This document shows, piece after piece, positions 1,941 through 13,616 of a DNA stretch of 64,000 bases. Below the pieces are notes generated by a model that ran no database searches, had not been told where the DNA came from, and saw nothing but the letters and a program-made list of their open reading frames with translations. Origin of the DNA: Pannonibacter carbonis (GTDB lineage Bacteria > Pseudomonadota > Alphaproteobacteria > Rhizobiales > Stappiaceae); NCBI RefSeq assembly GCF_003012935.1, contig NZ_PUDR01000002.1, forward strand, positions 186,001 through 250,000, in the 5' to 3' direction. A program made the position numbers and the translations under genes. Numbering within the stretch: the first letter of the stretch is position 1; each line of letters starts with the position of its first letter.

Positions 1941-2723
1941 ATGCGGTCGATCGATCTCAACAGTGATCTTGGCGAGAGCTTCGGCGCCTGGGTGATGGGC
2001 GACGATGCCGCGATGCTGGACCTCGTCAGCAGCGCCAATGTCGCCTGCGGGTTCCACGCCGGCGATCCGGCCGGCATCCTGAAGACCTTGAAGGCGGCAC
2101 GCGTGCGCGGCGTCAGCGTTGGCGCGCACGTCGGCTACCGTGATCTCGCCGGCTTCGGTCGCCGGACGATGGATCCTTCCAGTGAAGAACTTTATGGCGA
2201 CGTGATCTACCAGATCGGCGCGCTGCAAGGGCTTGCAGCTGCGGCTGGCACCTGCGTGTCCTACGTCAAGCCGCATGGCGCGCTCTACAACACAATTGCC
2301 TTTGACGCCCGGCAGGCGGCAGACGTGATCGCTGCCATCCTGGCGGTCGACCCGCGATTGACCCTTGTGGCGCTGGCCGGCTCTCCGCTGGTTGCGCAGG
2401 CGCAGAAGGCCGGGTTGACGGTGATCGCCGAAGCGTTTGCGGACCGCGCCTATACCGCCGACGGACGCCTGGTGTCGCGGCGCGAGCCCGGCGCCGTGCT
2501 GCATGACCCGGCACGGGTTGCCGACCGCATGGTGCGCCTTGTGCGTGACGGGGTTGTCGAAGCGATCGACGGGCAGATGGCCCGGGTCGAGGCGCAATCC
2601 ATCTGCGTGCATGGCGACAGCCCGGATGCGGTGGCCATGGCGCGGCAGGTGCGACAGGCGCTGGAAGCAGATGGCATCGCCATCCGGCCTTTCGCCGGCC
2701 TGGAAAGCGCAGGGCAGGGCTGA
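1941..2723 (+). CDS. pxpA: 5-oxoprolinase subunit A (LamB/YcsF family)
   Basis: A 260-residue protein with the family opening [14 protein letters not shown], then [12 protein letters not shown] and [11 protein letters not shown], the conserved metal and substrate residues of PxpA. With PxpB and PxpC it opens the lactam ring of 5-oxoproline (pyroglutamate) to glutamate using ATP, in the cytoplasm. The ATG at 1941 is preferred over the in-frame GTG at 1926, because family members begin only a few residues before IDLN. It is the first gene of the operon, one base from the pxpBC start. Some YcsF relatives act on other lactams, so the substrate is likely but not proven to be 5-oxoproline. Confidence 0.9.
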
Positions 2724-2724
2724 G

Positions 2725-4374
2725 ATGTCGTTGCTGCCCGTCCTTCCCACCGAGCCTGCCTCGGCCAGCCTGCGTTTCCTGCCGATGCGGGACGGCGCGC
2801 TGATGATCGAGCTGGCGGATCTAGCCGAAACGCTGGCGCTGTTCGATGCGCTGCAGGCGGCAAACCTGCCGGGCATCATCGAGATCATCCCGGCCGCGCG
2901 GACCCTTCTGCTGCGCTTTGATCCCAGCATGCTGCGCACGTCCGACATCGAGCGCGAAGCCTGTGCCCGTGCCGGACAGGGACGGAAGAGCGAAGCCGGG
3001 GTGCTGGTCGAGGTCCCTGTCTTCTACGATGGCGAGGATCTCGCGGAGGTGGCCGATCTCGTCGGGATCAGCCCTGAGGAAGTGATCCAGCGCCACACGC
3101 AGGCTGAGTACACCGTTGCCTTCACCGGCTTTGCCCCCGGATTTGCCTATCTGAGCGCGGGCGATGCCGGGCTCACGGTGCCGCGCCGCACGTCGCCGCG
3201 CACGCTGGTTCCGGCCGGCGCTGTCGGGCTGGCCGGTGAGTTCAGCGGCATCTACCCCAAGGCCAGCCCTGGCGGCTGGCAGCTGATCGGGCGCACGCCG
3301 CTGGCGATGTTTGATCTGGCGCGGGAGCCGGCGGCACTGCTGACCCCCGGCGCGCGGGTCAGGTTCCGCGACATGGCCAAGGAGCCCGGCGCGTCAGTCG
3401 TCGTGCCGTTGGCAGCAAGCGAAATCACCAGCAGCGCGCAGGACCGGCGGCAGGCCGCACTCGAGGTGTTGTCCACCGGCCTGCCGGCTCTGGTGCAGGA
3501 TCTTGGCCGTCCGGGGCTCGCCGGGCAGGGCATCAGCCAGTCCGGGGCCGCGGACCGGGGTAGCCTGAAGGCTGCCAACCGGCTGGTCGGCAACCGGCCG
3601 GACGCACCCGCGCTGGAACTTGCGCCAACCGAATTCCGGTTCAAGGCCTTGGAGCGCGCTGTTATTGCGCTGACCGGCGCAGCCGAGCGGATCGAGATTG
3701 CGCCTAAGGCCGGCGCGAAACGGGTCTTTGCAGCGAACCGTCCCGTGGCGCTGGAGCGCGGCGATGTTGTGCGCGTTCCGGCACCTCAGCGCGGCATGCG
3801 CTCTTATCTTGCTCTGCGTGGCGGGCTCGACGTCCCTATAGTGCTGGGCAGCGCGGCGAGCGACACGCTGGCGCAGCTTGGGCCGGAGCCGGTCGTTGCC
3901 GGCGTCCGGCTTTGTGCCGGTCGCGAGCCCCGCGAGGCGGTGGCCGATGCAGCATATCTGCCAGCAACGATGTTGCCGGCGGCGGGCGAGGTCGTGGCGC
4001 TTGAGGTGGTTCTGGGGCCGCGCACGGACTGGTTCACCGACGCTGCACTGGCCGATTTTCTCGGGCAGGACTGGGAGGTCACCGCACTGGCGAGCCGCGT
4101 CGGACTGCGACTTGCCGGGCCGGACCTGACGCGCGCGATTGGCGGCGAGCTGCCGAGTGAAGGCACGTTGCGCGGAGCGATCCAGGTGCCGGCCAATGGT
4201 CAGCCGGTGCTGTTCCTGGCCGATCATCCGCTGACAGGCGGCTATCCGGTTATCGCCAATGTGGTGAGCCACCATCTCGACCTCGCCGGACAGATCCCGC
4301 CCGGCGCCCGGATCCGCTTCGTCGCGGCGCGGACTTTCAAAGACATCAAACCCTGTTCAGGTGCGCCCACATGA
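2725..4374 (+). CDS. pxpBC: Fused 5-oxoprolinase subunits B and C (PxpB-PxpC, KipI-KipA type)
   Basis: A single 549-residue chain joins two subunits that are separate in E. coli. The PxpB/KipI part is residues about 10-215, with the hallmark [11 protein letters not shown] and PRRTSPRT. The PxpC/KipA part runs from about 245 to 545, with [23 protein letters not shown] and [15 protein letters not shown]. Together these form the cyclophilin-like ATP-dependent lactam-handling unit, whose fold is related to the carboxyltransferase domain of urea carboxylase. The ATG at 2725 starts one base after the pxpA stop. The stop overlaps the next start as ATGA, implying translational coupling. The fused frame is uninterrupted through the linker (about 215-245). 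Confidence 0.9.
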
Positions 4375-6143
4375 AAAAGGTTCTGATCGCCAATCGCGGC
4401 GAGATCGCAGTCCGCGTGATCCGGGCTTGCCGGGACTATGGCCTGGCGTCCGTTGCCGTCTACGCCGATGCGGATGCCGGAGCGCTGTTCACCGGGCTGG
4501 CCGACGAGGCGCTGGCACTCAATGGGGCGAGCCCGAAGGAGAGCTATCTCGACATCGGCAAGCTGATCGAGGCGGCTCGCCGTTCGGGGGCTGATGCGGT
4601 GCATCCGGGCTATGGCTTCCTGTCGGAACGGGCGGAGTTTGCCCGCGCGGTGATCGACGCGGGGCTGACCTGGATCGGGCCGGACCCGGAGGTGATCGAG
4701 GCGCTGGGCGACAAGCTCGAAGCGCGGCGCATTGCCCGCAAGGTCGGCGCGCCGCTGGTCAAGGGCAGCGACGGACCGATTGGCTCGGCTGCCGAGGCGC
4801 TGGCCTTTGCACGGGAGTTCGGTCTGCCGATGGCTATCAAGGCCGCGCATGGCGGCGGCGGACGCGGCCTCAAGATTGCCCGCAGCCTGGACGAGGTGGA
4901 GGAGCTGTTCGACAGCGCCACCCGTGAGGCACTGGCCGCCTTTGGCCGGGGCGAATGCTATGTGGAACAGTTCCTTGACCGGCCGCGTCACATCGAGGCG
5001 CAGGTTCTGGCCGACCGGCACGGCAATGTGGTCGTGGTCGGTACGCGCGATTGCTCGCTGCAGCGGCGCAACCAGAAGCTCGTCGAGGAAGCTCCGGCCC
5101 CGTTCCTGAGCGATGCGCAGCGCGCGGCCATCCATGCCGCTGCGCGCGATATCTGCCGCGCGGCTGGCTACACCGGGGCGGGCACGGTGGAGTTCCTGCT
5201 CAGCGCCGATGGGCTGATCTCGTTTCTGGAGGTGAATACGCGCCTGCAGGTGGAGCATCCGGTGACGGAAGAGACCACAGGGATCGACCTGGTGGTGGAG
5301 CAATTCCGCATCGCCGAGGGCCTGCCGCTGGGCATCACGGAAACGCCGGAGCCGCGCGGTCACGCGATCGAGTTCCGCATCAACATGGAAGACCCGGGCC
5401 GGGGCTTCCTGCCGGCGTCGGGTGAAATCACGGCGATGACGGTGCCGGCCGGTCCGGGCATCCGCTTTGACAGCGGTGTGACGGCCGGCTCGGTGATCCC
5501 GCCGATGTTTGATTCCTTGAGTTCAAAACTCATCGTCTGGGGTGTGACGCGCGAGCAGGCAATTGCCCGTGCGCGCCGTGCGCTCAGTGAGTTCCGCATC
5601 GAGGGTGTTCCGAGCGTGCTGCCGTTCCACAGGGCGGTGCTGCAGGAGGCTGACTTCTGCGGTCCGTTCAGGGTGCATACGCGCTGGATCGAGACAGAGT
5701 TTGCCGGGACGCTGGACACTGCCCCGCGGCCCGAGGCGACCGGTGAGGCAAGCCTGTTGCGCGGCAAGATCGAGATCGGCGGGCAGCTTGTCGAGATCGG
5801 CATTCCGCAGAGCCTGTTGCGGCTGCTGGGGACCGGGACGGCTGTGCCGGTGATGGAGGATGCGACCCCAATTGATGCGGCTGTCGTGGCCGCGCCGTTG
5901 CCGGGAACTTTGGCGCACTGGGCAGTTGCCGACGGCGATCTCGTCCGTGCGGGCGATGTCATCGCGATGATGGATGCGATGAAGATGGAAACGGCCGTCA
6001 CGGCGCACCGCGATGGCGTGATCACCTGCCTGGCGCAGGCTGGATCAGCCCAGATCGCCGGGGCTGCATTGGCCCGGATTGAACCGGCGGGCGTGGCCCA
6101 GACAAACAACAACCGGCAGGAACCGGCGGAGACGCAGGCATGA
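4371..6143 (+). CDS. Biotin carboxylase fused to a C-terminal biotinyl (BCCP) domain
   Basis: A 590-residue protein. The biotin carboxylase domain covers residues 1 to about 450: it starts [17 protein letters not shown], then HPGYGFLSE, the glycine-rich ATP loop HGGGGRGLK, and [17 protein letters not shown] biotinyl domain follows with AMKMET, in which Lys538 is the expected biotinylation site. The family charges biotin with carboxylate from bicarbonate and ATP. Acyl-CoA carboxylases would need a separate carboxyltransferase, and none is encoded in the window. The gene is coupled by overlapping ATGA junctions to pxpBC before it and the ABC ATPase after it. The natural candidate acceptor module is therefore the KipI/KipA-type PxpBC protein. 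Confidence 0.9.
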
Positions 6144-7987
6144 GCACCATGACGCCCCCTGAGAAGACGCCCCCCCAGATGTCCAACCCGCTGCTCATCG
6201 TTGACGGGCTCAGCGTCAGCTTCGGCGGCAACCGGGTGATCGAGGATCTGTCCTTCTCCGTCCAGCCGGGCAAGACGCTGGCCATCGTGGGCGAGTCCGG
6301 GTCCGGCAAGTCGGTGACATCCCTGTCGATCATGCGGCTGGCCGACATGATGGGCGCGCGCTTTGACGCAGGCCGGATCCTGTTCGGCGCCCGCAACCTG
6401 CTCACCGAGACGCAGAAGGACATGCGCGCGATCCGTGGCAAGGACATTGCCATGATCTTTCAGGAGCCGATGACTTCGCTCAATCCGGTCTACACCATAG
6501 GCGACCAGATCTGCGAAACGCTGATGCTGCACGAAAAGATGAGCAAGGCGGCGGCGCTGGCGGAGGCCATCCGGCTGCTCGGCATGGTGCGCTTGCCGGA
6601 CGCGGCCGAACTGGTGAAGCGCTATCCGCACCAGCTTTCCGGCGGCATGCGCCAGCGGGTGATGATCGCCATGGCGCTGGCCTGCCGGCCCAAGGTTCTG
6701 ATCGCCGACGAGCCGACGACGGCGCTGGATGTGACCATCCAGGCCCAGATCCTCAACATCATGCGCGAGTTGCAGAAAGAACTCGGCATGGCGCTGATTT
6801 TCATCACCCATGACATGGGCGTGGTCGCCGAGATGGCGGACGACGTGGTGGTGATGTGGAAAGGCCGGAAGGTCGAGGAAGGCAAGGTCACCGACATTTT
6901 CGCAAGCCCGCAGCATCCCTACACCCGCGCCCTGCTGTCCGCCGTGCCGAAGCTGGGTTCAATGGCGGGCGAGGACTATCCCAAGCGCCTGCCGCTGACG
7001 GTGCTGGAAGATGGCGAGCCGAAGACCGTGGGCGTGGAGCGGGTGCAGAACACCGCCCGCACCGACGGAGGGCCGCTGTTGTCCGTGCGCGACCTGTTCG
7101 TGCGCTTTGACGTGCGCAAGACGATCCTTGGCAAGGTCACCCACCGCTGCAGCGCCGTGTCGAATGTATCCTTCGACATCTATCCGGGCGAGACGCTGGC
7201 GCTGGTTGGCGAATCCGGCTCGGGCAAGTCGACCATCGGCCGGGCGGTGCAGCAGCTGCAGGCCGCCCACTCCGGCGACATCAGCTTCAAGGGCAAGAGC
7301 CTTGCCGGCATGTCGGCGGCCGAGCGCTTCGCGTTGCGCCAGAAGGTGCAATACATCTTCCAGGACCCGTTCGCCTCGCTGGACCCGCGCAAGACCGTCG
7401 GGTTTTCGATTGCAGAACCGATCACGACGCACGGGCTGATCAGCGACCGCAAGGCGATCCAGCGGCGGGTGGATGAACTCCTCGAACGGGTCGGGCTCAC
7501 CTCGGCCCATGCCAGCCGCTATCCGCATGAGTTTTCCGGTGGCCAGCGCCAGCGCGTCTGCATTGCCCGGGCACTCGCGTCCGACCCGGAGCTGATCATC
7601 GCCGATGAGGCCCTGTCGGCGCTGGATGTGTCGATCCAGGCGCAGGTGATCAACCTGTTCATGGACCTGCAGGCCGAACGCGGGCTGGCCTATCTCTTCA
7701 TCAGCCATGACATGGCGGTGGTGGAGAAGATGAGCCACCGCGTCGCCGTGCTTTACCTCGGCCAGATCATGGAAATGGGCAGCCGCCGCCAGGTGTTCGA
7801 GACGCCGGCGCATGACTACACCCGCCGCCTCCTGTCCGCCGTGCCGGTTGCCGACCCGACCCGCGCCCGCACCTCCGCGATGCTGGAAGGCGAGATCCCC
7901 AGTTCAACCCGGCGCGTGGGAGACGAGCCGGCTCTCCTCGTTCGCGAGGAAATCCATCCAGGCCACCTTGTCGCCAAGAGCGCCTGA
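6140..7987 (+). CDS. Peptide-type ABC importer, double ATPase (DppD-DppF / GsiA-like fusion)
   Basis: A 615-residue protein with two full ABC ATPase modules in tandem. Module 1 has Walker A GESGSGKS at 51-58, the signature LSGGMRQR and Walker [13 protein letters not shown]. Module 2 has Walker A near 357-364, FSGGQRQR and a Walker B with DEA in place of the usual DEP. Each module is followed by the oligopeptide-family C-terminal extension, such as the region reading [12 protein letters not shown]. It energises import of peptides or similar substrates with the adjacent binding protein and two permeases. The start overlaps the previous stop (ATGA at 6140). Confidence 0.92.
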
Positions 7988-8027
7988 ACCCTGCGAAATC
8001 CGCAGTCATCAGCAGAGGAATGGGAAC

Positions 8028-9563
8028 ATGAAAACAAAGAAGTGGGGAATGAGCGCCGCCCTCGTAGCGCTTGCCATGTCCAGTGTCTCTTTTGTCGCCC
8101 AGCCGGCGCTTGCCGCCGGCAAGCTGACCGTTGCTTCGCCGCTCGATCCGGGCAGCTGGGATCCGATCGACACGTTCCTGGTGGCCTGGGCCGCCGTTTC
8201 GACCAACGTGTTTGAAGGCCTCACCTATCGCGGTCCGGACCTGAAGCTGGTGCCGGGCCTTGCCGAAAGCTGGGAAGAGCTGGACGAGGGCAAGCGCATC
8301 CGCTTCAAGCTGCGCCAGAACGTCAAGTTCCACAACGGCGAGCCGTTCAATGCCGAAGCCGTCAAGTTCACCTTCGACCGCCTGCTCGGCGAGCAGGGCG
8401 CCAAGGGGCCGCAGCGCTCGAACTACACCGTGATCGACAGCGTCGAGGTCATCGATGAGAACACCGTCGACCTGAAGCTGAAGAAGCCGGATCCGGTGCT
8501 GCTGACGAAGCTCGCCGGCTATGGCGCGATGATCGTTCCGCCGAAGTACATCGCGGAGAAGGGCGAGGACCACTTCAACGCCAACCCGGTCGGCACCGGC
8601 CCGTTCAAGGTCGTGTCCTACGCACCGAAGGTCGACGTCAAGCTGGCGGCAAACCCGGATTACTGGGGCGGTGCGCCGAAGCTGGACGAGGTGGACTTCC
8701 GCTTCATCTCCGAGCCGGCAACGGCTGTCGCCGAACTGCAGTTCGGCCGCGTCGATCTCGTCATCCCGCCGATCATTCCGATCGGCATGGTCGAGACGAT
8801 CAAGTCGGATGCGAACCTCGAGATCCTGAGCGTTCCTGGCCCGACCGTCGACGCGCTGCGCTTCAACACCCGCGACGGCATCACCGCCGATGCGCGCGTG
8901 CGCAAGGCGATCATCATGGCTGTCGACCGCGCGGCCATCGTGCAGTCGATCCTGGCAGGTCACGCTTCGGAAATCGCCACCTTCCAGAGCGCGCTGTCCT
9001 TTGGCCATGACGAGGCGCTGAAGCCGCTGCCGTTTGATCCGGCCGCTGCGAAGAAGCTGCTTGCCGAGGCTGGTGTGAAGCCGGGTGAGGCGCTGCAGAT
9101 CGACGTGCGTGGCAATGACGCGACCATGAACGAAGTGGCCCAGGCCATCTCCTTCTACCTGCAGGCTGTCGGGCTCAATGCCACCGTGAAGCCGTACGAG
9201 ACCAGCGTGCTGATCAACGACATCATCCCGCAGGGCAAGACCGGCGCCATGTTCCAGCAGAAGTGGGGTGGCTGGACCTTCGATTACGACAACACCGCCT
9301 ACGCCATGTATCACACCGGCGAAAAGTGGAACCCGTATGACAAGGACGAAACGCTCGACAAGCTGCTGGAATCCCAGCGTCCGATGACCGATCAGGCGGC
9401 CCGCGAGAAGGTGCTGCAGGAGATCGGTGCCTATGTCGCGGACAAGGCGCTCGAGCTGCCACTCTACAACACCAACGCCATCTACGGCATCAACAAGCGG
9501 GTGAAGGGCTTCGTTCCGGCGCCCGACACCCGCATCAAGCTGAATGAAGTCAGCGTCGACTGA
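8028..9563 (+). CDS. Peptide-type ABC transporter substrate-binding protein (family 5)
   Basis: A 511-residue secreted protein. A signal peptide (residues 1 to about 30, ending QPALAAGK) leads into the family 5 binding fold, with VFEGLTYRG, LVPGLAESWE, YTFDR-like segment VKFTFDRLLG and NPVGTGPFKV. These match dipeptide/oligopeptide/nickel-type binding proteins. It captures the substrate in the periplasm for the neighbouring ABC system. The start is ATG 8028 with GAGGAA upstream. The gene is 40 bp after the ATPase gene and is followed by a strong hairpin and a 500-bp repeat block before the permeases, which should leave the binding protein in excess. Confidence 0.9.
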   Translation: MKTKKWGMSAALVALAMSSVSFVAQPALAAGKLTVASPLDPGSWDPIDTFLVAWAAVSTNVFEGLTYRGPDLKLVPGLAESWEELDEGKRIRFKLRQNVKFHNGEPFNAEAVKFTFDRLLGEQGAKGPQRSNYTVIDSVEVIDENTVDLKLKKPDPVLLTKLAGYGAMIVPPKYIAEKGEDHFNANPVGTGPFKVVSYAPKVDVKLAANPDYWGGAPKLDEVDFRFISEPATAVAELQFGRVDLVIPPIIPIGMVETIKSDANLEILSVPGPTVDALRFNTRDGITADARVRKAIIMAVDRAAIVQSILAGHASEIATFQSALSFGHDEALKPLPFDPAAAKKLLAEAGVKPGEALQIDVRGNDATMNEVAQAISFYLQAVGLNATVKPYETSVLINDIIPQGKTGAMFQQKWGGWTFDYDNTAYAMYHTGEKWNPYDKDETLDKLLESQRPMTDQAAREKVLQEIGAYVADKALELPLYNTNAIYGINKRVKGFVPAPDTRIKLNEVSVD

Positions 9564-9573
9564 CACACACTGA

Positions 9574-10076
9574 GGTCCCGCCCGGCATGGCCGGGCGGGG
9601 TTGTGACTTGCTGACACGACCAGAAGGCTGCGTGACACGACGGACCATGCGTTTGCGCCTCTCCCCCCATGAGGGGCAGAGCTCTCGCAGATGTAGTCAG
9701 ACAGTTGTCGAGGCCTCGAAGCTCCCCTCCCCCCCGTGGGGAGGGGTGAGGGGTGGGGGGCACAGCGCCCGTTTGATCGCAAATTGCGTGAACCACGCGC
9801 AGTCAGGAACGCAGGTTACCTGGAATGAAGTCTGTTCCCCCCACCCCCAACCCCTCCCCACGAGGGGGAGGGGGGCGGAGAGGCTCCGACAAGGATCAAA
9901 ATTTCTGGGCACGGTCGTTCACATCGAACACGTGCCAGACTTCATATGCGAAAGCCTCGACCCTCAAGGGGGGAGAGGGCGCTGCGACTTAAGGCATCTG
10001 TCAGGGGCTAATCTCTGGTTGGTCTTGGTGTGTCAGCAGTTTCAGGTTCCGCCCGGCATGGCCGGGCGGGGCCAAT
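9574..10076. repeat. About 500-bp imperfect palindrome built from two inverted intergenic repeats
   Basis: The whole SBP-permease gap folds on itself. The outer arms are near-identical hairpins (10-bp C/G stems around ATG) at 9577-9599 and 10049-10069. Next inward are matching arms near 9606-9622 and 10019-10038. Then come C/G-tract arms around 9655-9692 and 9945-9990. The central pair is at 9722-9760 and 9835-9884, each containing a CCCCTCCCC/GGGGAGGGG-type hairpin. The centre (about 9715-9885) is the same composite element found near 38.2 and 41.9 kb. No coding potential is seen. Confidence 0.75.
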
Positions 10077-10097
10077 CCGCACCAGTAGGAGAAGAAC

Positions 10098-11021
10098 GTG
10101 GCCGGTTTCCTCATCAAACGCCTGCTTCAGGCCATCTTCGTGGTCATCGCCATCACGCTCATCGTCTCGTTCGCCATCCGCCTCACCGGTGATCCGGCGG
10201 TGATGATGTTCCAGGGCGGCGGCAGCATGACGGAAGAGGATCTGATGCGGATCCGTGCCGAGCTTGGCACGGACAAGCCCTTCCTGGTGCAGTATCTGAG
10301 CTTCATGCAAGGTCTGGTGACCTTCGACCTCGGCAAGAGCTTCGTTGGCGGAACGCCGGTCGCCCGGCTGATCGGCGACGCGCTGCCGGCGACCCTGATG
10401 CTGGCCTTCGTGTCGATGGCGGTTTCCATCGCCCTGTCGATCCCGCTCGGCATCAAGGCGGCCACTTCCCGCGGCAAGCTGGCGGATCAGGTGATCCGCG
10501 TGTTCTCGCTGGTTGGCCTGTCGTTTCCGAATTTCTGGCTCGCCACCATGCTGGTGCTGCTGTTTGCCATCACCTTCAACCTCTTGCCACCCAGCGGCAT
10601 GTCGGGACCGGAGAGCTTCATCATGCCCGCCGTGACCATGGGCGTGATCCTGACCGCGACCAATGTGCGCCTGGTGCGCACGGCGATGCTGGAAACGCTG
10701 CAGTCGCAATATGTCATGGTCGCCCGGGCCAAGGGGCTGAGCGAGAGCAAGGTTCTCTACAAGCACGCCCTGCGCAACTGTGCCATTCCGCTGATCACCT
10801 ATTTCGGCCTGCAGTTTGGCGGCCTGCTCGGCGGCATCGTCGTCATCGAGCGGGTGTTCAACTGGCCGGGCATGGGCACGCTCGCCTTCGAGGCGGTCGG
10901 TGCGCGCGACTATCCGGTGCTGCAGGCCGTGATCACCGTGCTGTCGCTGATGATCGTCGGCATCAACCTTCTCGTCGATATCGCCTATGGCCTTGTCGAC
11001 CCGCGCATCCGGACGGAGTGA
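10098..11021 (+). CDS. Peptide-type ABC transporter permease (DppB/GsiC-like)
   Basis: A 307-residue inner-membrane protein with six predicted membrane segments. The family opening is FLIKRLLQAIFVVIAIT, followed by the periplasmic loop after GDPAVMM and the EAA coupling loop near VMVARAKGLSESKVLYKHALRN. The end is GLVDPRIRTE, as in DppB/OppB permeases. It forms the channel with the next permease. The start is GTG 10098 with AGGAGAAG upstream. It lies downstream of the palindromic repeat, so it may be transcribed at lower level than the binding protein. Confidence 0.92.
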   Translation: MAGFLIKRLLQAIFVVIAITLIVSFAIRLTGDPAVMMFQGGGSMTEEDLMRIRAELGTDKPFLVQYLSFMQGLVTFDLGKSFVGGTPVARLIGDALPATLMLAFVSMAVSIALSIPLGIKAATSRGKLADQVIRVFSLVGLSFPNFWLATMLVLLFAITFNLLPPSGMSGPESFIMPAVTMGVILTATNVRLVRTAMLETLQSQYVMVARAKGLSESKVLYKHALRNCAIPLITYFGLQFGGLLGGIVVIERVFNWPGMGTLAFEAVGARDYPVLQAVITVLSLMIVGINLLVDIAYGLVDPRIRTE

Positions 11022-11026
11022 CGCTC

Positions 11027-11872
11027 ATGGCCGCAAAGACCTCTCGCCCCTCGCAGTTTGCCAGTCTCGAGTTCATCCTCGGCGCGTTTCTGACAACCGT
11101 GATCTGTTTCGCGGTTTTGTTCTCGGATGTGCTGTTTCCCGGCGCCGACAAGATCGACCTGATGGCCCGGCTGACCAAGCCCTTTGTCAGTGCAGCGCAT
11201 CCGCTCGGCACCGACCCGCTCGGCCGCGACGTGCTGGCCCGTGTGGTGGCCGGTGGCAAGATCTCGCTGCTGGTCGGCTTTACATCGGTGATCGGCGCGG
11301 TCGTCTTCGGCGTGCTGATGGGGCTGATCGCCGGCTATTACCGTGGCTTCTGGGACATGGTGGTGATGCGCTTTGCCGACCTGCAACTGGCCATGCCCTT
11401 CATCCTGCTCGCCATCACCTTCATTGCCATTGTCGGCGGCAGCCTGACCAACACGATCATCCTGCTGATCATCTCGCAGTGGGTGCAATATGCCCGTCTT
11501 GTGCGCGGCTCCGTGCTCACCCTGCGCGAGCGGGAGTTCATCCTCTCCGCCCGCGCCATTGGCGTGAAGGACTGGCGCATCATCCTGCAGCACCTGCTGC
11601 CGAACCTGATCGGCCCGGTGATCGTGCTCATGACGCTGAATGTTGCCAACAACATCCTGCTGGAAAGCAGCCTGACCTTCCTCGGCCTCGGCGTCGATCC
11701 GACGATCCCGAGCTGGGGCGGGATGCTGGCGGACGGGCGGACCTACCTGCAGACCGCGTGGTGGGTGAGCGTGTTCCCCGGTGTTGCCATCCTGCTGACC
11801 GTGCTGGGTCTCAATCTTCTCGGTGACTGGCTGCGCGACAGCCTCGACCCGACCGGACGAACCTCGAGGTAA
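11027..11872 (+). CDS. Peptide-type ABC transporter permease (DppC/GsiD-like)
   Basis: A 281-residue inner-membrane permease. It carries the DppC features HPLGTDPLGRDVLARVVAGG near the N-terminus, AGYYRGFWD, the EAA loop EFILSARAIGVKDWRIILQHLLPN, and the closing GDWLRDSLDP. It pairs with the preceding DppB-like subunit. ATG 11027 is chosen because GGAG (11014-11017) sits nine bases upstream. A GTG at 11018, overlapping the previous stop, is the alternative and would add three residues. Confidence 0.92.
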   Translation: MAAKTSRPSQFASLEFILGAFLTTVICFAVLFSDVLFPGADKIDLMARLTKPFVSAAHPLGTDPLGRDVLARVVAGGKISLLVGFTSVIGAVVFGVLMGLIAGYYRGFWDMVVMRFADLQLAMPFILLAITFIAIVGGSLTNTIILLIISQWVQYARLVRGSVLTLREREFILSARAIGVKDWRIILQHLLPNLIGPVIVLMTLNVANNILLESSLTFLGLGVDPTIPSWGGMLADGRTYLQTAWWVSVFPGVAILLTVLGLNLLGDWLRDSLDPTGRTSR

Positions 11873-11876
11873 TCCG

Positions 11877-13616
11877 ATGACCGTGCTTGTCGACCGCAGC
11901 TTTGCCCGCACGCTGGACCAGATTGCCGGTCTTGCCCGCCCTGGCGAGACGCTGGAGGTGTGGAGCTTCGATGACCGCCGCAGCCGCGAGGACTGCGAAG
12001 CGCTGCTGAAGCAGAAGGGCATCACGGCCCGCATCCGCAGCGCCTACAAGCCGCTGGTGCATGCCTTTCTGGAAGAAATCGATCTGGCCGGGGTGAATGC
12101 AATCGAGCTGCACTATCCGGTGCATCCGGCCGCGCCGGACAACCGGTTCCGCCTCGAGGCCTATCCGCTGGCCGCGATGACGGGCGACAGACCACTGCGC
12201 TTCGTGCCGAAAACCGGCGCGGTGCTGCAGTATGATGTCGTGCTGACCCGAGCGGACGGGAAACGTGAGACCATCGCCGTGCTTGCCCCGAACCGGCTGC
12301 ATGTGGACGCGGCCGGCGAGACGAGCCTGTCGCCGACCGGCTGGATCCGGCGATCCGGCGAGGAAGAGGGGGAGCGGATCGAGACGGACTTCGAGCAGCT
12401 GTTCGAGGCGGCCATCGCCACCGTGAAGTCCGCCCCCTGGGGCACGCAGGAGCCCTATTTCGAGGAACTGCATATAGCAGCTTCCATCCCGGCGAAAGAT
12501 GCGCCGATGTCAGTCGGCGACGAGGTGATCAGCCTCGCCGAGGCCCTGCATGAGGACCTGTATTTCTCGCTGCTGGAGGTGTTCCAGAAGCGCTCGGGGC
12601 GTCCGCTCGGCGACCGGGGGCTGAAGCCGGGGCAGATCGTTCCGGCTGTGACGGGCGGCGCGGCGCGGTCCTCCCTGCGGATCGAGCTCAAGGCCCTGTC
12701 GACCGGCCATATGGACGACCCACGACAGGATCTGGACCGGGCGGAGACGCCTCTGGCCGTTGCGCAGGTGACCGACGAACTGGCCGGCCATGGCGGTGTT
12801 GCGTTCGAGGCAAGCACCCGGTCGGGCCGGACGGTGCGCGCGACCTATGTTGCCGGGACGGCTGCACCGGTGATGATCAGCGCCGGGCAACATGCCAACG
12901 AGACGACTGGCGTCGTCGGTGCGCTTCGGGCCGCACGGCGTCTGGCCAGACGTGAAGGGGCGCATTTCAGCCTGTCGCCGCTGGAAAACCCGGATGGCTA
13001 TGCGCTGCACCAGCGGCTGCGCCTCGGCAATCCACGTCACATGCACCACGCCGCGCGCTACACGGCGCTGGGCGATGACCTTGAATACCGCACGCGCGAG
13101 AACTCGGGGGCGACCCTCTTTGAAAAGGAAATCCGCCTCAAGGCCGAAGCGCTGAGCGGAGCGGGGCTGCATGTAAACCTGCACGGCTATCCCGCGCACG
13201 AATGGACCCGTCCGCTGTCAGGCTATGTTCCGCGCAACTTCGCCATGTGGACCTTGCCGAAGGGCTTTTTCCTGATCTTGCGCCATCTGCCGGGCTGGGA
13301 AGCGGCGTCCGAAGCCTTGCTCGACAAGGTGACGCGCCATCTGGCGGCAATCCCGGGGCTCGTTGGCGAGAACAGCCGGCAGATTGCGCTGTACGAGGCC
13401 CATGCCGGGGAAACCGGCTTCCGCATGATCAATGGGTTCCCGTGCCTGTGCTCGCTGGATGACCGGCACACGGTGCCTGTGACCCTGATCACCGAGTACC
13501 CGGACGAGACCATCTACGGCCCGGCCTTCCGCACCGGCCACACGGCGCAGATGGAAACCGTGCTTGCCGCCTATGAGGCCTGGCAGGAGATCATGACCGG
13601 ACTTGGCATGGTGTGA
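11877..13616 (+). CDS. M14 family zinc carboxypeptidase-like protein
   Basis: A 579-residue cytoplasmic protein without a signal peptide. A long N-terminal region of unknown fold (1 to about 310) precedes an M14-type catalytic domain. The zinc ligands are readable as GQHANETTG (His339, Glu342) and VNLHGYPAHEW (His436). A Glu in TLITEYPDE (about 540) suits the catalytic base. PLENPDGYA is the usual M14 substrate-side motif. It is the last gene of the operon, four bases after the permease. Because it is intracellular and co-transcribed with a peptide importer and oxoprolinase genes, it probably trims the imported peptide or amide substrate. The exact bond cleaved is not known. Confidence 0.8.
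   Translation: MTVLVDRSFARTLDQIAGLARPGETLEVWSFDDRRSREDCEALLKQKGITARIRSAYKPLVHAFLEEIDLAGVNAIELHYPVHPAAPDNRFRLEAYPLAAMTGDRPLRFVPKTGAVLQYDVVLTRADGKRETIAVLAPNRLHVDAAGETSLSPTGWIRRSGEEEGERIETDFEQLFEAAIATVKSAPWGTQEPYFEELHIAASIPAKDAPMSVGDEVISLAEALHEDLYFSLLEVFQKRSGRPLGDRGLKPGQIVPAVTGGAARSSLRIELKALSTGHMDDPRQDLDRAETPLAVAQVTDELAGHGGVAFEASTRSGRTVRATYVAGTAAPVMISAGQHANETTGVVGALRAARRLARREGAHFSLSPLENPDGYALHQRLRLGNPRHMHHAARYTALGDDLEYRTRENSGATLFEKEIRLKAEALSGAGLHVNLHGYPAHEWTRPLSGYVPRNFAMWTLPKGFFLILRHLPGWEAASEALLDKVTRHLAAIPGLVGENSRQIALYEAHAGETGFRMINGFPCLCSLDDRHTVPVTLITEYPDETIYGPAFRTGHTAQMETVLAAYEAWQEIMTGLGMV

Follow-up and report, generated by a model that had tools for sequence, protein, structure and literature searches.

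A pxp operon with its own biotin carboxylase in Pannonibacter carbonis: candidate for a split biotin-dependent 5-oxoprolinase

A 64,000-nucleotide stretch of the genome of Pannonibacter carbonis (contig NZ_PUDR01000002.1, positions 186,001 to 250,000; hereafter the window, to whose own numbering all coordinates refer) carries near its start three consecutive genes that encode homologues of the 5-oxoprolinase subunits PxpA, PxpB and PxpC, the latter two fused, together with a biotin carboxylase (BC) ending in a biotin carboxyl carrier protein (BCCP) domain. Coordinates and domain content agree with an earlier sequence-only reading of the window, which had described the three genes as tightly coupled: one base lies between pxpA and pxpBC, and pxpBC and the biotin gene share a 4-base ATGA overlap. 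The features concerned are as follows.

1941-2723, + strand: pxpA, LamB/YcsF family (LamB_YcsF match); predicted ring-opening hydrolase that retains the near-invariant family residues
2725-4374, + strand: pxpBC, PxpB (KipI, CT_C_D) fused to PxpC (KipA, CT_A_B); predicted carboxyltransferase
4371-6143, + strand: AccA3-type biotin carboxylase with C-terminal biotinyl carrier domain, 590 residues
5982-5984, + strand: codon of the predicted biotinylated Lys538 of the biotin protein (motif MMDAMKMET)

The PxpA protein (27.0 kDa) matches LamB_YcsF at 338 bits. Within the PxpBC protein (57.3 kDa), CT_C_D (residues 17-206) precedes CT_A_B (269-533), which is the KipI-KipA order and the reverse of that in urea carboxylase; the other member of the pair, the biotin protein (62.4 kDa), joins biotin carboxylase domains to a biotinyl domain (506-569) whose AMKM motif holds the predicted biotinyl Lys538. 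Family profiles find homologues of PxpA, PxpB and PxpC present together (NF003814 at 379.7 bits, cut-off 226; TIGR00370 at 154, cut-off 145.55; TIGR00724 at 233.4, cut-off 230.2), with the PxpC equivalog NF045499 below its cut-off (176.6 bits versus 500). The urea carboxylase profile TIGR02712 stays below its cut-off of 1303.85 bits (PxpBC 160.6, BC 492.2), and the single-chain layout of that enzyme (BC, CT_A_B then CT_C_D, BCCP) is replaced here by two chains with C_D before A_B. Two hallmarks of a biotin-dependent carboxylase are present, namely a BC domain with its active-site residues and a biotinyl domain with the biotinylation motif; for the third, a transferase that takes CO2 from carboxybiotin, PxpBC with its CT_A_B and CT_C_D domains is the candidate. 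Across the 17 loci that make up the window's clade (the window, L045-L057, L105, L106 and L142, some of them on short contigs), every BC row keeps 11 of 11 positions on a list that we take to be the active site of E. coli AccC, all 17 carry AMKM, and the BC of the clade looks intact.

Which carboxyltransferase this biotin protein could serve was addressed by accounting for all carboxylases of the genome (33 contigs totalling 4.78 Mb, completeness given as 100%; window on contig C12), names being assigned by position, length and a BC tree. Five carboxylase genes have a BC domain by PF02786, those on C14, C30, C12 (the window gene), C3 and C32 (a 1158-residue frame); further matches, three within a single 1141-residue frame on C7 and a weak one on C9, are taken for carbamoyl-phosphate synthase and another ATP-grasp protein. 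PF01039 matches four proteins: one on C14 about 5 kb from the BC there, one beside the BC on C3, and one each on C4 and C32, the last two read as the halves of the acetyl-CoA carboxylase (ACC) pair that would go with the BC on C30. All four lie on other contigs, in line with the earlier statement that the window holds no carboxyltransferase of its own, and they account for propionyl-CoA carboxylase (PCC), methylcrotonyl-CoA carboxylase (MCC) and ACC only. An acyl-CoA carboxyltransferase as partner is ruled out by these whole-genome searches of PF01039 and BC domains: the spare enzyme elsewhere in the genome that the sequence-only reading had named as refuting its proposal was looked for, and none is unassigned. 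A pyruvate-type partner is ruled out likewise, the sole PYC_OADA domain of the genome sitting within the 1158-residue pyruvate carboxylase (PYC) frame. Because the PF01039 and PYC_OADA proteins are assignable to the other four BCs, the window BC is the only one of the five left without a classical carboxyltransferase, and PxpBC is its sole candidate. PF02626 and PF03746 have one match each in the genome, both within the window, which makes one PxpC and one PxpA.

The pairing recurs across the phylum. PxpBC was searched in 299 genomes, 135 of which gave a match, with at most four first-look candidates scored per genome in this survey and in that of the biotin protein. A sharp break sets off 13 places in 12 genomes (window included) where both domains match at E<=1.1e-153, at 49-57% identity to the window PxpBC (the window itself apart). 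Below these come a split PxpB/PxpC pair in G046 (1e-82 and 1e-67) and two adjacent genes at one place in G074 (4e-74); the remaining matches are at 1e-49 or weaker. The biotin protein, at E<=1e-150, is found in 13 of the 299 genomes as 14 genes, and these are exactly the genomes and places of the close PxpBC clade, with PxpBC fused in 12 of the 13 genomes and split in one. Sixty loci from the top of the PxpBC match list were fetched for context. A BC of 69-76% identity follows PxpC directly in all 13 close-clade loci (L045-L057), which with the window makes 14 of 14 adjacent, and of the 47 other loci three (L058, L060 and L100) have a BC within a stretch of up to 19.5 kb. Plasmid records numbering 744 match PxpBC of any type, and 215 match the biotin protein at 1e-150. 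Nine proteobacterial plasmid loci were hand-picked. The PxpBC list supplied six (Sinorhizobium meliloti Rm41, Shinella sp. HZN7, Gemmobacter fulvus, Haematobacter massiliensis, Comamonadaceae OTU4NAUVB1 and Paracoccus aestuarii), and the other three, two of Klebsiella pneumoniae and one of Paracoccus marcusii, came from the biotin-protein list; the biotin carboxylase gene comes after the PxpBC gene in 6/6 and 3/3, as checked by tblastn. The clade occurs in alpha-, beta- and gammaproteobacteria and on plasmids. Two actinobacterial plasmid loci (Streptomyces, Tsukamurella) have no pxp gene annotated near their AccA3-type biotin gene, as expected if the protein is a general alpha subunit there. 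As a side observation, 95 of the 215 plasmid records matching the biotin protein are from Klebsiella, and the operon is present on the Klebsiella plasmids L195 and L196 (NZ_CP009865.1, K. pneumoniae plasmid pKPN-80a), one copy lying near a copper-resistance gene and insertion sequence elements.

Phylogeny is consistent with a distinct lineage. In a PxpC tree of 113 rows (quick IQ-TREE run, rooted at the midpoint), the 17 rows linked to a BC-BCCP gene fall into a single group (SH-aLRT 99), and together with 25 of 26 actinobacterial rows, grouped as lacking an adjacent BC, they make up one side of a 99% branch. The other side holds canonical E. coli PxpC, the urea carboxylases and two more sets of loci with a BC. 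Overall, a BC stands beside pxp genes in at least three lineages of this tree. In the BC tree (59 rows, the duplicate row L137 dropped), the clade's 17 BCs, among which L142, the sole such row to come from the actinobacterial phylum, is set apart from the other 16, group (100) with AccA3-like proteins of Nocardiopsis alborubida and Glycomyces fuscus, apart from the PCC, MCC, AccC and PYC of the P. carbonis genome. Both of these actinobacteria have pxp loci with the same gene set and no adjacent BC, their AccA3-type BC-BCCP protein, 58% identical to that of the window, being encoded elsewhere. Our reading of these trees is that the lineage may have used a shared AccA3 in actinobacteria and carried its own copy into proteobacteria. 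BC distances within the clade correlate with those of PxpA, PxpB and PxpC (r 0.74-0.78, 16 rows), as would be expected if the genes are inherited together. PxpA retains in the clade the residues near-invariant in all groups and has V64 in 16/17 clade and 20/22 actinobacterial rows versus P in 42/43 canonical rows; PxpA therefore diverged along with its partners.

The other BC-linked loci differ in kind. Five of them, from the actinobacterial phylum (L144, L164, L168, L169 and L171), have canonical-type PxpB/PxpC followed in order by an AccB-like gene of its own (EAMKM), an AccC gene, D-glutamate cyclase and PxpA. A count of surplus BCs in seven BC-linked genomes other than that of P. carbonis was withdrawn for five, where a PYC_OADA gene adjoins one of the two AccC-type BCs and where the pxp-linked AccB/AccC may serve ACC because ACC has no other BC; the count stands for G055, and in G074 one of two AccC-type genes is surplus. 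In loci L100, L172-L174 and L176-L180 the KipI/KipA pairs are divergent, and most have pxpA and an AccC-like BC close by; their nearest relatives in the PxpC tree are the urea carboxylases. A search of their surroundings for one form of the biotinyl motif gave nothing but a single unlikely match in L100.

A structural precedent for the pairing comes from Mycobacterium smegmatis. The PDB sequence search with PxpBC returns chains V and W of 9yx5 ('Allophanate hydrolase subunit 2/1'), and that with the biotin protein returns AccA3 as best full-length match (708 bits over residues 2-570; next distinct kind, 476), in entries that include 9yx5. The title of 9YX5 (released 2025-11-26), taken from a Foldseek listing for which alone an AlphaFold model of PxpBC (mean pLDDT 61.8) was used, is that of a long chain acyl-CoA carboxylase complex of M. 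smegmatis with MSMEG_0435-MSMEG_0436 bound. The complex and the window are alike in bringing an AccA3-type BC-BCCP protein together with KipI/KipA homologues. They differ in that the alpha subunit of the complex belongs to an acyl-CoA carboxylase, with each Kip protein on a chain of its own, whereas in the window the biotin protein is encoded in the pxp operon and PxpB and PxpC are fused. MSMEG_0435 joins the actinobacterial rows of the PxpC tree, inside a 100% group shared with the window's clade. Both M. smegmatis genes are reported to be up under nitrogen limitation, 2.4- and 2.2-fold (PMC4617892), and an earlier biotin carboxylase survey mentions adjacent bacterial genes that match both halves of the urea carboxylase transferase, given there without functional data (PMC3199775). 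Among the matches listed, the open-licence PMC literature yielded no publication describing 9YX5 and none that names a biotin-dependent 5-oxoprolinase. Genome accounting, the 13/13 genome match, conserved adjacency and the solved complex of homologues together support the view, put forward in the sequence-only reading, of PxpBC as a carboxyltransferase-like partner, and we regard it as very probable that PxpBC pairs with this biotin protein.

With moderate confidence, which is to say that we consider it the probable reading, we propose that the operon encodes a split biotin-dependent 5-oxoprolinase in which the biotin protein carboxylates, PxpBC transfers the carboxyl group to the lactam and PxpA opens the ring. 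The BC-BCCP protein would use ATP and bicarbonate to form carboxybiotin on its own biotin, and the PxpB-PxpC fusion would pass the carboxyl to 5-oxoproline, most likely at the ring nitrogen. N-carboxylation would give the ring carbonyl imide-like character and lay it open to attack, PxpA as predicted metal hydrolase would hydrolyse the activated ring, and the resulting carbamate would lose CO2 to give glutamate, with bicarbonate used catalytically and the energy source shifted from PxpBC to the BC domain. We infer the substrate in this genome, the carboxylation of the lactam, the position of the carboxyl group and the carbamate step. Carboxylation ahead of ring opening is plausible. The nearest chemical relatives of the proposed mechanism are the urea and guanidine carboxylases, which carboxylate an N-C=O or N-C=N group prior to hydrolysis, and the ATP-dependent caprolactamase, for which a carboxy-ester of the lactim is discussed as one of three mechanisms (PMC8453981).

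The case for 5-oxoproline as substrate comes from the relatives. We searched for pyroglutamyl peptidase, DUF969/DUF979, D-glutamate cyclase (PF07286) and NRAMP-type carriers, and at least one such neighbour is present in 8 of the 17 clade loci and 7 of the 9 named plasmid loci: D-glutamate cyclase family members lie between PxpA and PxpBC (in L142, about 2.5 kb beyond the regulator), NRAMP-family carriers are found, and pyroglutamyl peptidase occurs with DUF969/DUF979. The YcsG-like NRAMP-family carrier PxpT is reported as required for 5-oxoproline use in Corynebacterium glutamicum (PMC13274462). The further features around the three genes in the window are these:

881-1570, - strand: GntR/FCD-type regulator, divergent; homologue in 13 of the 17 clade loci, window counted
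6140-7987, + strand: two ABC-transporter ATPases in one chain, GsiA-like (glutathione/dipeptide type); shares an ATGA with the biotin gene
8028-9563, + strand: extracellular solute-binding protein, family 5; start codon chosen by eye, profile scans used 8031
10098-11021, + strand: peptide/nickel-type ABC permease (profile match)
11018-11872, + strand: second peptide/nickel-type ABC permease (profile match)
11877-13616, + strand: possible M14-like zinc carboxypeptidase (18.3 bits, below the Pfam cut-off of 21.6)

Given the 4-base overlap between the biotin gene and the ABC-transporter gene behind it, the transcription unit probably continues through the GsiA/Opp-like importer (6140-11872) and the possible M14-like peptidase. 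The gap upstream of the solute-binding gene is 40 bases with the preferred start at 8028 and 43 with that at 8031; a repeat-rich gap of 534 bases separates the same gene from the first permease gene, its long inverted repeats (61-base arms, 84%) and 28-base direct repeat at 9573-10073 looking like intergenic repeat elements. The 579-residue protein at the operon end has no Pfam match above cut-off, shows weak M14 and AstE_AspA matches at residues 329-399, and found no PDB relative by sequence search; it may process an imported peptide. Its counterpart in Pannonibacter sp. SL95, the closest relative among the named loci (PxpBC 97% identical, gene order unchanged), is 95% identical over the available part of the locus. 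A YdjC-family gene (54-845) lies upstream of the regulator, YdjC and LamB/YcsF sharing a common fold superfamily.

Several points weigh against the proposed biotin-dependent reaction. Canonical PxpABC acts on 5-oxoproline with ATP, and with three proteins only. None of the 5-oxoproline-linked neighbours is present in the 64 kb window, nor in 9 of the 17 clade loci (window included), and confidence in the full reading is lowered because of this lack in the window itself; the substrate is less sure in this genome than in the clade, since the window has a peptide-type importer only. Canonical pxp loci that lack a BC have these neighbours as well, which suggests that 5-oxoproline is handled by both types. 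Binding in 9YX5 is given by the entry title only, and the four rows nearest to MSMEG_0435 (L147, L149, L153 and L155) have no PxpA in the approximately 17 kb fetched, so the substrate there may not be 5-oxoproline. Three actinobacterial relatives have the same gene set without an adjacent BC, two of them keeping an AccA3-type protein elsewhere; for the third, Nocardiopsis halotolerans, a search of the draft genome showed none. At the active site, the general-base lysine of the urea carboxylase carboxyltransferase, K1605 in KlUA (PMC5770610), aligns with PxpB R154 of the window, an arginine in 17/17 clade rows and in canonical PxpB. Only the two alignable urea carboxylases and the group L100, L172-L174 and L176-L180 have lysine there, a BC being seen in 8 of the 9 loci of this group (the sequence of L180 ends early); as a guess, the arginine could hold the carboxylate of 5-oxoproline. 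Among 15 PxpC columns that separate the clade from canonical rows, urea carboxylase has the clade residue in 5, the canonical residue in 3 and neither in 7, and in the sole differing PxpB column it agrees with neither. A urea carboxylase-like active-site signature as proof of biotin use, resting at first on 8 PxpC columns, was dropped when more rows, counted evenly for both sides, gave this split of 5 for, 3 against and 7 neither.

Among the alternatives, a canonical phosphorylating 5-oxoprolinase survives best, and we hold it to be unlikely. PxpBC would then phosphorylate 5-oxoproline with ATP, PxpA would open the ring, and the biotin protein would be left to some other carboxylation or to regulation. 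Phosphorylation is what is assumed for canonical PxpBC (PMC13274462), co-purified PxpB-PxpC is reported to hydrolyse ATP (PMC8453981), and 49 PxpC rows on the canonical side have no BC in the stretch examined. It would leave unexplained why an AccA3-type BC is found in the 299 genomes only beside this PxpBC type, in a genome that leaves no other carboxyltransferase for it, and why the homologues form a solved complex, 9YX5 by its title. A split biotin-dependent carboxylase for another substrate, be it a lactam, a cyclic urea or an N-blocked peptide taken up by the peptide-type ABC importer, with PxpA hydrolysing the product, we judge quite improbable. Such an enzyme would suit a window with a GsiA/Nik/Opp-like importer, a possible M14 peptidase and no 5-oxoproline-linked neighbours, and the guanidine and urea carboxylases are described as accepting other N-substrates with the same carboxyltransferase fold; yet relatives have pyroglutamyl peptidase or D-glutamate cyclase beside the same genes, and the PxpA residues common to all groups are retained. 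A biotin protein that serves acyl-CoA carboxylases in general as alpha subunit, like actinobacterial AccA3, and whose place beside pxp is incidental would fit its AccA3 lineage and the Streptomyces and Tsukamurella plasmid loci, but is very hard to sustain where no AccD-type partner is left for it in the own genome, all four PF01039 proteins are assignable to other BCs, and the biotin gene adjoins PxpBC in 14 of 14 cases of the phylum sample.

The proposed split biotin-dependent 5-oxoprolinase combines traits of known systems. With PxpABC (E. coli YbgJKL, B. subtilis YcsF-KipI-KipA) the window shares all three protein families, and its relatives share the pyroglutamyl peptidase, YcsI-like and NRAMP-type neighbours; it differs in the PxpB-PxpC fusion, the dedicated biotin carboxylase-carrier gene and the separate PxpC clade (99% SH-aLRT). 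With the urea and guanidine carboxylases it shares the BC, BCCP, CT_A_B and CT_C_D domains, whereas those enzymes are single polypeptides with CT_A_B before CT_C_D, have other hydrolase partners and carry the general-base lysine that is arginine in the window. SAR11/HIMB59 clusters, described as having biotin-dependent carboxyltransferases/carboxylases and a PxpA-like subunit, contain the same kinds of gene, on which alone the likeness is drawn, and urea degradation is the role suggested for them (PMC10308929). The Pseudomonas putida 5-oxoprolinase of the Meister laboratory is reported to have a component A, a hexamer of 64 + 51 kDa dimers with 5-oxoproline-dependent ATPase activity, and a component B of 82 kDa (PMC8453981). 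Proteins of the clade (61-62 and 57 kDa, PxpA 27 kDa; three loci) are nearer to component A than are E. coli PxpB (23.9) and PxpC (34.4), although the 51 kDa fits the clade masses poorly. One clade member, L053, lies in a genome whose AccC is nearest to PDB 2c00/2vqd, presumably P. aeruginosa. Trapping work on the P. putida enzyme reportedly favoured a phosphorylated lactam, which would weigh against the link. More broadly, and only as a doubtful possibility, the KipI-KipA fold could be a widespread third kind of biotin carboxyltransferase and the whole of this 5-oxoprolinase lineage, through a dedicated biotin protein in the window's clade and a shared AccA3 in the actinobacteria, could be biotin enzymes, the P. 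putida enzyme maybe included; the assumed phosphorylated-lactam mechanism would then fail for that lineage.

5-Oxoproline forms spontaneously from glutamine and glutamate and is a common damage product; to our knowledge, the mechanism of the common bacterial enzyme for its disposal is assumed, not proven. If the proposal holds, a function would be found for proteins annotated 'urea amidolyase family' beside a 'biotin carboxylase N-terminal domain-containing protein'. The clade with its own biotin carboxylase offers a simple test, with biotin, bicarbonate and avidin, of whether PxpBC activates the lactam by carboxylation.

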